Source: Arthrobacter sp. Soil764
GTDB lineage: Bacteria > Actinomycetota > Actinomycetes > Actinomycetales > Micrococcaceae
Direction: 5' to 3'
NCBI RefSeq assembly: GCF_001428075.1
Contig: NZ_LMSI01000025.1
Location: forward strand, 5,330-69,329
Length of the DNA stretch: 64,000 bases
Shown: positions 38,926-43,619 of the stretch, piece after piece
Layout of the letters: every line of letters begins with the position of its first letter
Numbering within the stretch: the stretch's first letter is position 1
Made by a program: the position numbers and the translations under genes
The notes under the pieces: generated by a model
What the model was told of the DNA's origin: nothing
The model's input: only the letters and a program-made list of their open reading frames with translations
The model's database searches: none

Positions 38926-40986
38926 CTATCTGGCCGCGTCCGCCCCAAGCCGGGTCAACGCGGCCAGTGCCTTACTGCGGTCCGTGGTGGCCCAGAACGG
39001 CGGGAGCGCTCCCCGCAGGAAGCCTGCATAGCGCTCTGTCGCCAGTCGGGAATCCAGAACGGCCACCACACCTTTGTCTCCAGTGGACCGGATCAGCCGG
39101 CCGGCGCCCTGGGCCAGCCGGATGGCAGCGTGCGTGGCCGACACCGACATGAAGCCGTTCCCGCCCGCCTGCGCCACGGCACGGGAACGCGCCGTCATCA
39201 GCGGATCGTCCGGCCTGGGGAACGGTATGCGGTCGATCACCACCAGGCGGCAGGAGCCTCCCGGAACGTCAACTCCCTGCCACAGGGACATCGTCCCGAA
39301 AAGGCAGGTGTCCGGTTCGTCCGCGAACTGCTTGACCAGGGCTGTCATGGTCGATTCACCCTGGCAGAGTACAGTCACATCGAGCTTGGGCCGGAGGGCG
39401 TCGGCGGCCTCTTCAGCCGCCCGGCGCGACGAAAACAGGCACAGTGCACCCCCGCCCGACGCTTTGATGAGCGCCTCCAGTTCCGCCAGCGCCTCCGGGG
39501 AAACGCCGCGGCCGGGTTTTGGCAGGTGGCCGGCCACATAAAGGATCCCCTGTTTGGGGTAATCGAAGGGCGAGCCGACATCCACGCCTGTCCAACTGGG
39601 TGCGCCCTCACCGATGAGGCCCAGTCCCCCGGCCGCGGGCTCAAAAGCGGAACCAATCGCCAGCGTCGCGGAGGTCAACACGACGGTGTGGTCGGCGAAA
39701 AGCCCTTCCCGCAACCTGCCCGCGACGGAAAGGGGTGCGATGTTGATCAGCACCGGCGCGCTGTCATCGGGCTGCGTGTATCCCTGTCCTGGATCGAATG
39801 TGCCGGCCCGGGAAAACCAGACAACTTCCCGGTTTTCCCGGGCAGCGATCAGCCGCTCGCACAATTCCAGGATGAGCATGAGGCGGGACCGCGACAGCTG
39901 CCGGCCGCCGTCGGCAGTGGTGTTGCTGTCCCCCTTGGAATCTGACAACGCGGCGCGGCAGGCCTCCCGCAGCTGGTCGATGCAGTCCAGCTGTTCGTCG
40001 TTCAGGCCGTTGGGGAGCAGGCCGTTCGGGGCGCCTGCAAGGGCCAGCTCAAGGTTCTCGGCTGCAGCGCTCAGTGCGTCAACGGTGATCGCCGTATGCT
40101 TGCGCGCGCCGGACGCGGCAGCGTGGACCATCGCCACGGACAGCTGTCCGGACACGGCGCCGGTAACCCGGTCCTGGAGCTCGTGGGCTTCATCCACCAC
40201 CACGACGTCATACTCGGGCAGGACTGCAAGCCCTTCGAAAGCACTGACGGCGAGCATGGCATGGTTGGTCACCACCACGTCTGCCTCGGCTGCGTCCTGC
40301 CGCGCCAGCTCGCTGAAGCACTCGGCGGCCATGGGGCATTTCTGGGCGCCCAGGCACTCCATGGAGGTAACGGACACCTGTCGCCAGGCACGGTCTGTCA
40401 CGCCGGGGAGGAGCTCGTCCCGGTCGCCGGTGGCCGTTTTCTCCGCCCACTCGCGGAGCCGCACCACTTCCTTGCCAAGCTGCGAGGAGGGTCCGCCCAC
40501 GGACGCGGCGAAGTGCGGGACGCTGGTGTCTTCGCCCAGGGAAAAGAGCTGCCCTTCGGAGGGCTCCTCGGAAGGGAAGCCGCCTTCGAGTTTGTGGCGG
40601 CAGACGTAGTTGGACCGTCCCTTCACCAGGGCAACCTTGACGGGCCGTTCCAGGGCAGGGGTGATGTTCTTCAGCAGCCGTGGCAGGTCCCTGCCAACAA
40701 TCTGCGTCTGCAGTGCCAGCGTTGCCGTGGACACCAACGCCGGCTTGTTGCTCTCAAGGGCGTGGGCGATCAGCGGCACCAGGTAGGCCAGAGACTTTCC
40801 TGTGCCGGTGCCGGCCTGGACCAGCAGGTGGTTGCCCGTTTCGATGGCCCGGGCCACCTGCCGGGCCATTTCGTGCTGTCCGGTGCGGCTTTGTCCTCCC
40901 ATACCCGCGACGGCACGGTCGAGCAGTTCAATGACGAACTGCTCGCCGTCCGTCTGCGGGGCTTCGCCGGCCGCGGGATCACTCAT
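38926..40986 (-). CDS. dinG: DinG/XPD-family ATP-dependent DNA helicase
   Basis: 686 residues. Walker A is QAGTGTGKSLAYLVP near residue 55, the iron-sulfur cysteines fit a C-x(n) pattern with NYVCRHKLEGG and SMECLGAQKCPMAAECFSEL, and the DEAH box VVVDEAHELQDRV is near 265. C-terminal helicase motif HAAIRLAQGAGRLIRS. Superfamily 2, 5'-3' XPD type, thought to resolve R-loops and structured DNA. Despite the dinG name, no LexA box was seen near its start, and it is probably translated with hflX, whose stop overlaps its ATG. Confidence 0.9.
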   Translation of the reverse strand: MSDPAAGEAPQTDGEQFVIELLDRAVAGMGGQSRTGQHEMARQVARAIETGNHLLVQAGTGTGKSLAYLVPLIAHALESNKPALVSTATLALQTQIVGRDLPRLLKNITPALERPVKVALVKGRSNYVCRHKLEGGFPSEEPSEGQLFSLGEDTSVPHFAASVGGPSSQLGKEVVRLREWAEKTATGDRDELLPGVTDRAWRQVSVTSMECLGAQKCPMAAECFSELARQDAAEADVVVTNHAMLAVSAFEGLAVLPEYDVVVVDEAHELQDRVTGAVSGQLSVAMVHAAASGARKHTAITVDALSAAAENLELALAGAPNGLLPNGLNDEQLDCIDQLREACRAALSDSKGDSNTTADGGRQLSRSRLMLILELCERLIAARENREVVWFSRAGTFDPGQGYTQPDDSAPVLINIAPLSVAGRLREGLFADHTVVLTSATLAIGSAFEPAAGGLGLIGEGAPSWTGVDVGSPFDYPKQGILYVAGHLPKPGRGVSPEALAELEALIKASGGGALCLFSSRRAAEEAADALRPKLDVTVLCQGESTMTALVKQFADEPDTCLFGTMSLWQGVDVPGGSCRLVVIDRIPFPRPDDPLMTARSRAVAQAGGNGFMSVSATHAAIRLAQGAGRLIRSTGDKGVVAVLDSRLATERYAGFLRGALPPFWATTDRSKALAALTRLGADAAR

Positions 40987-42559
40987 TGACGACGAATGGT
41001 TCCAGTTCGGACGCCAGGCCCTCGCGGACCTTCACCTCAGCCCTGGTCCCTGCCTCAACGTGGTCCACGTTGAGGATTTCGGCGTCGGACTCGTGGAGCT
41101 TGCTGATCAGGTCTCCGCGGTCGTAAGGGATGAGCACGTCCATCTTGACCGAGGGCCGGGGAATCGATTCGCTGATGGCCTTCAGCAGTTCGGGAATGCC
41201 CTCACCGGTGCGGGCGGAGACCACCACGTGGCGTGGCTCGCGCTGCTTCAGACGCTCCACCACGAAGGGGTCGGCCGCATCGGCCTTGTTCAACACGATG
41301 ATTTCCGGCACCTTGCGGGCATCAACTTCGCTGAAGACCTTCCGGACGGCAGCGATCTGTCCTTCGGGATCGGGATGCGAAACGTCCACCACGTGCAGGA
41401 TCAGGTCCGAGTCCGCCACCTCCTCGAGGGTGGAGCGGAAGGCCTCCACCAGCTGGGTGGGCAGCGAGCGGACGAATCCGACAGTGTCCGCCAGGGTGTA
41501 GCCGAGGCCGTCCGCGGTTTCCGCCTTGCGGACGGTGGGATCCAGGGTGGCGAACAGCGCGTTCTCCACCAGGACTCCGGCGTCCGTAAGCCGGTTGAGG
41601 AGGGAGGATTTTCCGGCGTTGGTGTACCCAGCAATGGCCACGGAGGGCACTTCATTACGACGGCGGTTGGCCCGTTTGGTCTCGCGCGCCGGCTTCATCG
41701 CGGCGATTTCACGCCGCAGCTTGGCCATGCGGGTACGGATCCGGCGCCGGTCCAGTTCGATCTTGGTCTCACCGGGGCCACGGGAGCCCATGCCGGCGGC
41801 AGCGCCGCCCACCTGGCCACCGGCCTGGCGGGACATCGACTCGCCCCAGCCGCGCAGGCGGGGAAGCAGGTATTCCAGCTGCGCCAGCTCCACCTGGGCC
41901 TTGCCTTCGCGGCTCTTGGCGTGCTGGGCGAAGATGTCAAGGATCAGGGCCGTACGGTCGATGACCTTGACCTTGACGATGTCCTCAAGGCCACGGCGCT
42001 GGGAAGGCGCCAGTTCAGCGTCCACCACCACGGTGTCCGCACCGGTGGACATGACGATTTCCTTGAGTTCGAGTGCCTTGCCTGAACCCAGGAAGGTTCC
42101 CGGGTCCGGCTTGTCGCGGCGCTGCACCAGCCCGTCCAGGACTTCGGAGCCGGCGGTCTCGGCGAGGGCTGCCAGCTCACGCAGTGAGTTTTCGGCGTCC
42201 GCTAGGGTGCCCTCGGACCACAGACCGGCCAGGACCACGCGCTCCAGGCGGAGCTGGCGGTACTCGACTTCGGTGACGTCTTCGAGTTCGGTGGACAGGC
42301 CTGCCCTTCGGCGCAGCGCGCGCCGTTCCTCGAGGTCCTGCTGGTCGCCGTCGTAGGTTGAGTGTTCTTCGTCGAGGCGGGAAATTGCCTGTGCCTTGCC
42401 GAGCACCGCTTTTCCATTGCCGCTGCCCTCACCGGCGGGCGTGCTGACATTCTTGGCCGGGACGTCCTTGGCGAGGATCCGGTCGATGACAGCCTGGATC
42501 TCCTGCGGACTCATGTCCTGGGCGGCTGGATCGGAACCGGTGTTGGGCTGGCTGGTCAT
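40979..42559 (-). CDS. hflX: ribosome-splitting GTPase HflX
   Basis: 526 residues. The N-terminal helical domain has SGKALELKEIV and DAELAPSQRRGLEDI, then GRGxG-like MGSRGPGETKIELDRRR, then the GTPase domain with G1 GYTNAGKSS, G3 DTVGFVRSLPTQLVEAF and NKAD. I chose the ATG at 42559, three bases after AAAGGAG. A second ATG 30 codons upstream (42649) also has AGGAG in front, so both starts are possible. HflX splits stalled or stress-damaged ribosomes. The stop overlaps dinG by eight bases. Its leader is unusually long and structured. Confidence 0.93.
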   Translation of the reverse strand: MTSQPNTGSDPAAQDMSPQEIQAVIDRILAKDVPAKNVSTPAGEGSGNGKAVLGKAQAISRLDEEHSTYDGDQQDLEERRALRRRAGLSTELEDVTEVEYRQLRLERVVLAGLWSEGTLADAENSLRELAALAETAGSEVLDGLVQRRDKPDPGTFLGSGKALELKEIVMSTGADTVVVDAELAPSQRRGLEDIVKVKVIDRTALILDIFAQHAKSREGKAQVELAQLEYLLPRLRGWGESMSRQAGGQVGGAAAGMGSRGPGETKIELDRRRIRTRMAKLRREIAAMKPARETKRANRRRNEVPSVAIAGYTNAGKSSLLNRLTDAGVLVENALFATLDPTVRKAETADGLGYTLADTVGFVRSLPTQLVEAFRSTLEEVADSDLILHVVDVSHPDPEGQIAAVRKVFSEVDARKVPEIIVLNKADAADPFVVERLKQREPRHVVVSARTGEGIPELLKAISESIPRPSVKMDVLIPYDRGDLISKLHESDAEILNVDHVEAGTRAEVKVREGLASELEPFVVNE

Positions 42560-42950
42560 GGTCTCCTTTGAAGATTCGGCAATTCCAGAATAGTGCTGAT
42601 TGGTTGGAAGTTGGAACGTATTCGCGCTGGGCTGACGGCCTGCGGTCATGCAATACTCCTGTTTTTGTGGCGGCCGGCGGCTATGCCGGGGCCGGGGATG
42701 CCGCGTCAGGACGGCGGCAGGGCAAAATGGGGCCGGAAAACAGCGGGAAGTGCAGCAGGAGGCTGACTTTCGAGTATCGTCCGGCTGCCGGGACAGACAG
42801 TTGGGTCTGGCCGGTGCACAAGCGGAAGGCTTAAAACCTGCATCGCTGCGGAACGGGCTGTCACTGGAGGACAGGCTGCGGGACGGGCATGGCCCGTGCC
42901 GGCTACTCGAAGATCAGGAACATGCGATGCAGCCTAGCAGAGCGGGTTTT
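42560..42950 (-). promoter_or_regulatory. long structured leader upstream of hflX
   Basis: About 390 bases between hflX and the divergent methyltransferase gene hold no recognised gene. On the minus strand GCATCGC (42930-42924, in TGCATCGC) pairs with GCGATGCA (42839-42846), flanked by AAAACC/GGTTTT (42950-42945 with 42838-42833). Inside are an ACGGGC/GCCCGT hairpin (42897-42883), a CTGTC/GACAG hairpin (42874-42858) and tiny minus-strand reading frames ATGTTCCTGATCTTCGAG-stop (42923-42903, MFLIFE) and MPVPQPVLQ (42890-42861). The outer stem ends in TTTT on the hflX side. The pattern fits translational or transcriptional attenuation. Confidence 0.45.
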
Positions 42951-42995
42951 GCACGGTTTCCCATTACGCTGCAAGGGGAACTACTCTGGCCAGTT

Positions 42996-43619
42996 ATGGA
43001 GTCCGCACACTATTTCAGCACGTCCCCCGCCGGCCCCTTCACCCGGAAGCCCCTGACCGTGGAGTTGGCCGGTGAAACGCGCAGGCTCCAGACTTCCACG
43101 GGCATCTTCAGCCCGGACGGGATCGACAAGGGTACAGCGGTGCTCCTGGCCGAAGTTCCGGCGCCGCACCCCACGGGAAACCTGCTGGATATCGGATGCG
43201 GCTGGGGTCCCATCGCGCTCACCATGGCCCTGCTGGCGCCCGGGTCAAAGGTCTATGCTGTGGATGTCAACGAACGCTGCGTCACCCTCACCAACGAAAA
43301 CGCCGCTTCACTGGGACTGTCCAACGTCGTGGCCAGCACTCCCCAGGAGGTAGACCCCGACCTGCGGTTCGACACCATCTGGTCCAACCCGCCCATCAGG
43401 ATCGGCAAGGACGAACTGCACGCGCTGCTCAAGCTGTGGCTTCCGCGCCTGGCAGAGGGCGGGACTGCATGGCTGGTTGTGCAGAAGAACCTGGGCTCGG
43501 ACTCCCTGCAGCGCTGGCTGGCCGCTGAACTGGACAGTTCCTTCAGCGTGACGCGCGAGTCCACGTCAAAGTCCTTCCGGATCCTGAAGGTTACGAAAGC
43601 GTCCCGCTCGCAACAATAA
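42996..43619 (+). CDS. RsmC-like class I methyltransferase
   Basis: 207 residues from ATG at 42996 ([20 protein letters not shown]). SAM-binding motif [20 protein letters not shown] near residue 65 and the N-methyltransferase motif [16 protein letters not shown] near 130. The RsmC/MTS group methylates guanine or adenine N positions in RNA; this one most likely modifies 16S rRNA, but without an N-terminal swivel domain. The frame extends to 42648 without support. The stop overlaps dapF on the opposite strand by 29 bases. Confidence 0.82.

Follow-up and report, generated by a model that had tools for sequence, protein, structure and literature searches.

The window, by which we mean the whole 64,000-nt stretch of DNA that was analysed, carries hflX on the minus strand. 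Its divergent neighbour, which faces away from hflX, encodes a methyltransferase with an MTS domain, and the 436-base gap described between the ATG of hflX (42559) and that of the methyltransferase (42996) was confirmed in the letters.

40979..42559, minus strand: hflX, 526 amino acids from the ATG at 42559, preceded by the Shine-Dalgarno (SD) sequence AAAGGAG; Pfam domains GTP-bdg_N, GTP-bdg_M, MMR_HSR1 and HflX_C

A single-sequence fold of the 436-nt leader had no excess stability (z of -0.97, with 17 of 100 shuffles equally good). A simple scan of 42400-43150 returned 0 consensus promoters and 0 U-tract terminators, and nothing in Rfam 15 matched the 64,000-nt window at gathering score or 42540-43000 up to E = 1. 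Since the leader showed no excess stability as a single sequence, we used comparison across leaders instead. Within the window's genus, 120 of 121 genomes gave a match to the region, and 110 of those 120 loci, the window's own included, were used as leaders L001-L110; the other 10 were left out.

The original prediction had placed a six-residue reading frame, MFLIFE, at 42923-42903. Indeed, a tiny ORF stands behind the same -10 element in every one of the 110 leaders, which is beyond chance.

42931..42939, minus strand: P1, the distal promoter, an extended -10 element TGCTAGGCT 7 nt ahead of the uORF1 ATG
42903..42923, minus strand: uORF1, a six-codon mini-gene (MFLIFE-stop), leaderless by promoter spacing and conserved in the leaders of the genus

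TGnTAnnnT precedes the uORF1 ATG in 110/110 leaders, the start codon is ATG in all 110, and the spacing from the -10 hexamer to the ATG is 7 nt in 109 and 6 nt in one. Six codons followed by TAG or TAA were found in 109/110; the exception, L092, has lost codons and reads MFLI-stop. The peptide is MFLIFE in 82 leaders, MFLNFK in 7, MILNFK in 6 and MILISK in 4, and the rarer peptides occur in one or two leaders each (MFLVFE, MILIFK, MFMIFE, MFLTFK, MFLNSK, MILNFQ, MILIFQ and MFIILV, the last in L094). Cysteine codons were absent from the uORF1 codon tally, and Arg-Leu-Arg was absent from the 110 genus peptides and from the peptides listed for other genera. A -10 element at such a distance places the transcript start at the ATG, an established promoter geometry. 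Because the spacing puts the start there, uORF1 is very probably leaderless, and from the same spacing we infer a transcript start at about 42924-42923.

A leaderless six-codon pattern with T as the second letter of codons 2-5 occurs a single time in the window's own genome, at hflX. Furthermore, a scan for the leaderless MFLIFE pattern in one genome per species (84,980 species) gave 92 loci, 84 of which have hflX downstream at 272-508 nt; in the remaining eight the sequence spans only 40-357 nt from the -10 element, too little to tell, with no hflX within it. The named loci belong to Arthrobacter, Pseudarthrobacter and Paenarthrobacter, plus one Micrococcaceae bacterium, and since the 92 loci overlap the genomes of the 110 leaders, the two sets are not independent. 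uORFs of 3-6 codons are far under annotation limits, and promoter spacing together with conservation makes them detectable.

Upstream of P1, TTGAC(A) begins 13-14 nt before the -10 hexamer in 26 of the 110 leaders (e.g., L075, L080, L096 and L107). The resulting spacer of about 8 nt is far below normal -35 spacing; its near-fixed length points to either the site of a regulator or a promoter of unusual type.

Other elements named for the gap fared less well. An outer stem had been proposed between GCATCGC (42930-42924) and GCGATGCA (42846-42839). Both stretches are present, but the stem is neither conserved nor beyond chance: the 3' arm was located in 109 leaders, of which one, the window's own, forms all seven pairs of GCATCGC/GCGATGC and the others form one to five. 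Moreover, its 5' arm lies within the 7 nt separating the -10 element from the ATG and is thus outside the predicted transcript. The AAAACC/GGTTTT edges were rejected as part of a switch. A second tiny frame, MPVPQPVLQ (42890-42861), can be read in the letters, but just 4 of the 110 leaders have its start codon (the search pattern being C(C)ATGCCCGT). Of the three besides the window's own, two retain much of the peptide and read past the stop, which leaves the nine-residue ORF to the window alone. The working helix is formed not by the outer stem but by uORF1 itself with 42775-42763.

42905..42917, minus strand: 5' arm of helix P0, uORF1 nt 7-19 (codons 3-7), covarying with 42775-42763
42763..42775, minus strand: 3' arm of helix P0, the anti-uORF segment X, pairing and covarying with uORF1

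Judged by comparison of the leader sequences, the pairing partner of codons 3-7 of uORF1 is segment X, which lies some 130 nt further down, and the pairing is accompanied by compensatory changes. In alignment A1, which holds 46 of the 110 leaders, taken from L001-L076 with hardly any of clade C and hand-picked for clean alignment (a choice of rows that, as in alignment A2 below, favours the structures being counted), 88.4% of the cells in the 12 pairs of P0 are standard pairs and four pairs changed on both sides. The pair at uORF1 nt 16 is GC in 28 leaders, AU in 14 and GU in 4; that at nt 11 is UG in 26, AU in 10 and something else in 10; that at nt 10 is unpaired in 26 of the 46. The complete 23-pair structure in A1 is 92.0% paired versus 34.4-47.2% when slid by 1-3 columns, and its covariation score was reached by 0 of 500 shuffles. 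The number of pairs changed on both sides (6) was reached by 30/500 shuffles and the number of pair types (19) by 197/500, which is no clear excess. Thus, two of five measures in A1 do not clearly beat shuffles, and we counted this against the structure. RNAalifold recovered the core of P0 (nt 13-18) unaided.

For all 110 leaders, X was defined by the best duplex found within +95 to +200, a choice that itself favours pairing. The pair at nt 11 is then UA, UG, AU or CG, that at nt 15 CG, UA, UG or AU, and that at nt 16 GC, AU, GU or CG. Compared with shuffles over a wider window, the P0 duplex reached the 5% level in 69/110 leaders and fell short of it in 41 (e.g., L056, L065, L084, L088, L094 and L105). 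On average, 14% of the other natural uORF arms fitted a given X better than its own arm did. An unconstrained partition function gave at least five expected P0 pairs in 70/110 leaders (37/47 in clade A, 12/28 in group B and 21/35 in clade C).

P0 encloses a structured domain.

42883..42897, minus strand: hairpin P1h (ACGGGC/GCCCGT), right after the uORF1 stop; 92.8% paired, with two of six pairs changed on both sides in 46 leaders
42822..42846, minus strand: near-invariant core, GCGAYGCAGG, a variable hairpin, then CC(W)TTCCGC; located by regular expression
42788..42816, minus strand: hairpin P3 (CACCGG.../...CCCGG), variable between clades; from RNAalifold of 45 leaders and by eye

A permissive regular expression for the core matched 103/110 leaders, and close variants were seen by eye in the other seven. 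The core occurs once in the window's own genome, and its two halves were found together in 0 of 40 hflX upstream regions of other genera (the first 40 of 80). Its near-invariance suggests a binding site or a tertiary fold.

The original prediction also held that two inner hairpins pair alternatively. Competing hairpins are indeed supported, but they differ from the ones named.

42753..42765, minus strand: alternative hairpin P4 (CAGC/GCTG); 85.4% paired, with three of four pairs changed on both sides in 24 leaders
42780..42785, minus strand: 5' arm of P5 (GCCGGA); 97.9% paired in 24 leaders
42732..42737, minus strand: 3' arm of P5 (TCCGGC), the partner of GCCGGA
42699..42719, minus strand: P6, a GC-rich hairpin and candidate terminator without a U-tract; 90.3% paired, with four of six pairs changed on both sides in 24 leaders

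The 24 leaders are those of alignment A2, all from clade A and again hand-picked for clean alignment, in which the structure is 91.9% paired versus 24-62% when slid. P4 competes with P0 because its 5' arm overlaps segment X, and in clade A segment X lies inside helix P5. P5 is without covariation support within clade A because it is nearly invariant there. An anti-SD role for the loop of P4 (CUCC), seen by eye in some leaders, was dropped since others do not have CUCC. Comparison across relatives, the check that the original prediction had proposed, thus supports the tiny frame and helices other than the outer stem it had named, but not that stem.

A ribosome on uORF1 was mimicked by forbidding pairing of nt 1-33 in 20 of the 47 clade A leaders. 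The mean probability of P0 dropped from 0.91 to 0.00, that of P5 rose from 0.06 to 0.64, and that of P4 rose from 0.21 to 0.82 in the 18 leaders in which P4 could be placed. In all 110 leaders, pairing of X with downstream sequence rose from 0.22 to 0.59 in clade A, from 0.14 to 0.38 in clade C and from 0.24 to 0.35 in group B, where an increase of at least 0.2 was seen in just 7/28. These computations predict an RNA with two states chosen by ribosome occupancy, the prediction being weaker outside clade A. SD accessibility stayed flat on blocking in the same 20 clade A leaders, at 0.33 to 0.35 for ORF2 (described below) and 0.55 to 0.57 for hflX. That the change of fold spares the translation starts favours transcription as the output.

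Hairpins with a T-rich tail were found in 38/110 leaders, with no site common to most. By our grouping, X/P4/P5 accounts for about 12 of them and the SD of ORF2 for about 6, with the others elsewhere. The approximately 12 over X/P4/P5 are from clade A and stand at +162 to +192; in these leaders the ribosome-on fold may itself terminate transcription, which would give the response the opposite sign. P6, or Rho acting in the C-rich leader, are further candidates for termination.

A transcription start close to hflX had been named as a finding that would speak against an attenuator leader. A -10-like element does lie some 30 nt before the hflX ATG, yet the tiny frame is conserved.

42587..42592, minus strand: P2, the proximal promoter, -10-like TATTCT, 28-33 nt before the hflX ATG
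42560..42649, minus strand: ORF2, an SD-led start (CAGGAG, 42661-42656, by eye) open in frame into hflX; start conserved

TATTCT was present in all 32 leaders viewed and is near-invariant in the genus alignment, and TAnnnT was seen by eye at the place of P2 in most other genera (TACGAT, TACCAT, TATCCT and TAGAAT). hflX probably has a proximal promoter besides the leader promoter, and a conserved proximal promoter could leave just a part of hflX expression to the leader. In six upstream regions of other genera (L148, L155, L157, L158, L168 and L172), TGTCRG was seen by eye 10 nt before the proximal TAnnnT; in its place the window's genus has a conserved CAGCCCAGCGCGAAT block further upstream.

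The alternative hflX start that had been pointed out at 42649 was borne out. The start codon of ORF2 is at the same place in 98/110 leaders, and none of these 98 has an in-frame stop before hflX. Third-position bias was absent from ORF2 (entropies of 0.504, 0.566 and 0.561), and there was a mild excess of synonymous changes over other frames. Its sequence may be held by the promoter; an N-terminally extended HflX made from long transcripts is possible. By eye, an SD-led in-frame start about 30 codons before hflX is also seen in L149, L151 and L156, from other genera. Four clade C leaders (L075, L078, L081 and L110) have a local hairpin in which the ORF2 SD, AGGAGG, is paired with GCCTCC (in L078 with GCTTCC) and after which a T-rich stretch follows; translational control is possible in clade C.

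We then surveyed 80 regions upstream of hflX from other genera of the family. Of these, 42/80 contain a leaderless ORF of 3-9 codons, at least half of them hydrophobic, versus 12/800 block shuffles. The shuffles of this survey, of the other-family scan and of the pairing test outside the genus moved two-letter blocks and did not preserve exact dinucleotide counts. An extended -10 element with any peptide of 3-8 codons was found in 37/80 versus 3/1,600 shuffles and 0/80 antisense strands. The extended -10 scan skips all 13 mini-genes of g7, which are without TGn, and the hydrophobic scan skips those of g8; combined, the two scans gave 52/80 by our count. Mini-genes such as MRLFK, MLFFN and MLLFI were present in 13/13 regions of g7, MTFL, MTYL, MTYI and similar ones in 11/11 of g22, MTLFFV, MTLIFV and similar ones in 8/8 of g23, MLIFL, MFLFI and VKIFL in 6/6 of g26 (VKIFL, in L156, is less sure, with a GTG start about 775 nt upstream), and MANK, MWNK and MKK in 6/7 of g8. 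No mini-gene was found in g31 (8 regions), g32 (3), g27 (2), g13 (2) and several genera with a single region. Outside the family, 0/20 hflX regions, drawn from 16 further families of the same order, had a leaderless mini-gene; the sequence covered extends some 1 kb upstream from the matched portion of hflX (0.57 and 0.81 kb in two loci). A leaderless mini-gene ahead of hflX thus looks like a trait of the Micrococcaceae (the family being that of the named matches), with turnover of the peptide.

Pairing of the uORF with downstream sequence was, outside the genus, mostly within shuffles: 5 of 42 regions came under 10/100, and two of the five are near-identical. In g23 (L173, L294, L295, L298 and L299), a CAAAGT was seen by eye about 80-100 nt past the ACTTTG of the mini-gene, and in L298 both have changed to match (ACTCTG/CAGAGT); this is perhaps an independent uORF/anti-uORF pairing.

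We have high confidence that the conserved tiny uORF and the RNA switch ahead of hflX are a real feature. Comparison also supports the view of the original prediction that this is an attenuator-type leader with a tiny ORF, unlike that of Listeria in kind. The reading that we consider likely is that the hflX leader is an attenuator of the distal promoter P1 that responds to ribosome occupancy and works beside the proximal promoter P2. Transcription from P1 would begin at the AUG of the MFLIFE mini-gene, so that the first option of a free ribosome on the leader RNA would be to bind the 5' end. If no ribosome stays on the mini-gene, codons 3-7 would pair with X and P0 would close the structured domain. 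If a ribosome is held there, by a translation-blocking drug or by failed recycling, P0 would be barred and X freed into P4/P5. The choice of fold would then set whether transcription from P1 runs through the C-rich leader into hflX, and P2 would provide the basal level. What we infer in this scheme is the holding of a ribosome, the agent behind it, an output at the level of transcription instead of decay or translation, and the direction of the response. MFLIFE carries, to our knowledge, no drug-stalling motif, and we counted this against the attenuator reading. If the scheme is right, hflX, whose product splits ribosomes and is linked to macrolide-lincosamide resistance in Listeria and mycobacteria, would be controlled in cis in a large soil genus, and a mini-gene whose coding letters serve as one side of the switch helix would sense the state of the ribosome in compact form.

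Such a sensor bears on the question of WhiB7, a protein that carries an AT-hook. Exactly two WhiB-family matches per genome were found in 21/21 genomes of the genus (G000-G020). The two WhiB proteins of the window's own genome, which we take to be WhiB1-like and WhiB2-like, have no visible AT-hook, and WhiB7 seems to be missing from the genus. hflX of Mycobacterium abscessus, according to the available text of PMC10727445, is bound and activated by WhiB7 and confers macrolide-lincosamide resistance. With WhiB7 seemingly absent, a cis sensor on hflX would fill a gap.

If the leader were a drug-specific attenuator as in Listeria, a macrolide, a lincosamide or a similar compound would stall the ribosome at a set codon and the peptide would be the sensor. 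Indeed, short peptides (4-6 residues) with many F, L, I, V or Y occur in several genera (MFLIFE, MRLFK, MLIFL and MTLIFV), and these presumably resemble the short macrolide-resistance peptides (E-peptides). Moreover, the hflX homologue of Listeria gives resistance to lincomycin and erythromycin and is induced through a stalled uORF, as the available text of PMC6310831 has it. Against this, the peptides vary widely (MANK, MWNK and MKNL) and none has Arg-Leu-Arg, and the conservation of the peptide in the window's genus is confounded because the same codons are under pairing constraint. We hold drug-specific sensing to be tenable as a tentative alternative.

Alternatively, the fold could govern translation of ORF2 or hflX, with Rho ending the untranslated RNA. 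The leader is C-rich (median C/G of 1.66 from +170 to -100 in 97 leaders), the start of ORF2 is kept in 98/110 leaders, GCCTCC pairs with its SD in some clade C leaders (L075, L081 and L110), and a precedent has been proposed for toiL-topAI of E. coli, according to the available text of PMC12121999. Blocking of the mini-gene left the predicted SD accessibility unmoved in the 20 clade A leaders, which speaks against it. We regard translational control as somewhat unlikely.

HflX is a 70S-splitting factor. Leaderless starts are mostly made by intact 70S ribosomes, the substrate of HflX, and a leaderless mini-gene would therefore be a natural gauge of that substrate. The 3-6-codon leaderless mini-genes of the Micrococcaceae could thus report idle or unrecycled 70S ribosomes to hflX in a feedback loop. 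In line with this, leaderless initiation proceeds mostly via direct binding of 70S at or near the 5' end, as stated in the available text of PMC9031893, the start codon is ATG in 110/110 leaders, and the peptides differ between genera while the leaderless design recurs. If true, this would be a direct homeostat of the ribosome pool that replaces WhiB7 in a lineage seemingly without it. However, it leaves the conservation of the peptide in the genus unexplained except through P0, and we consider it decidedly unlikely. That the leader senses no ribosome at all and is kept for RNA decay, for a trans-acting RNA or because the GCGAYGCAGG core binds a protein, be it HflX or a different one, with P2 driving hflX, would agree with the near-invariance of the core, its 0/40 occurrence in regions of other genera and the presence of P2 across genera by eye, but it would leave unexplained why the genus keeps a leaderless ORF of constant length and why such ORFs recur with other sequences elsewhere in the family but in 0/20 regions outside it, and is hardly to be expected.

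We found no published description of such a leader for hflX, judged mostly by titles and the starts of abstracts. The reading that we favour, an attenuator of P1 set by ribosome occupancy, has relatives among known systems. In mycobacteria, leaderless polycysteine short ORFs reportedly act as cysteine-responsive attenuators (Canestrari in 2020, going by the title). Like these, uORF1 is a short ORF in Actinobacteria, predicted from its sequence to be leaderless; unlike them, the mini-gene has no cysteine codon, and the downstream gene is one of ribosome rescue. Leaders with uORFs were reportedly also described for whiB7/wblC by Lee in 2022. Here the likeness is a stalling-sensing uORF upstream of a response that includes hflX in M. 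abscessus, whereas the uORF of whiB7/wblC controls the transcription factor whiB7 and the sensor described here would act in cis on hflX. That the whiB7 uORF senses ribosome stalling is stated in the available text of PMC13236596.

Closer in its target is rli80 of Listeria hflXr, in which, in the available text of PMC6310831, an hflX homologue is likewise preceded by a leader that has competing folds and a tiny ORF. According to the same text, the ORF of rli80 has 14 residues with RLR and the leader has an intrinsic terminator, whereas here the ORF is very probably leaderless, has six codons and is without RLR. Also unlike rli80, the ORF here itself forms one side of the switch helix, no terminator site is common to most leaders, and a probable second promoter lies by hflX. 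uORFC-6-1, before hflX in Bacillales, is likewise a structured uORF leader found by comparison; as far as the available text of PMC8632094 goes, it belongs to Firmicutes and has a conserved Arg-Leu-Arg peptide, which is absent here. toiL of E. coli topAI resembles the leader in that a uORF reads several ribosome stresses via RNA refolding, but in the available text of PMC12121999 the fold hides the ribosome-binding site and Rho then acts, whereas predicted SD access is unchanged here. A uORF attenuator of hflX is of a known kind; a leaderless mini-gene as the arm of the switch appears to be new.
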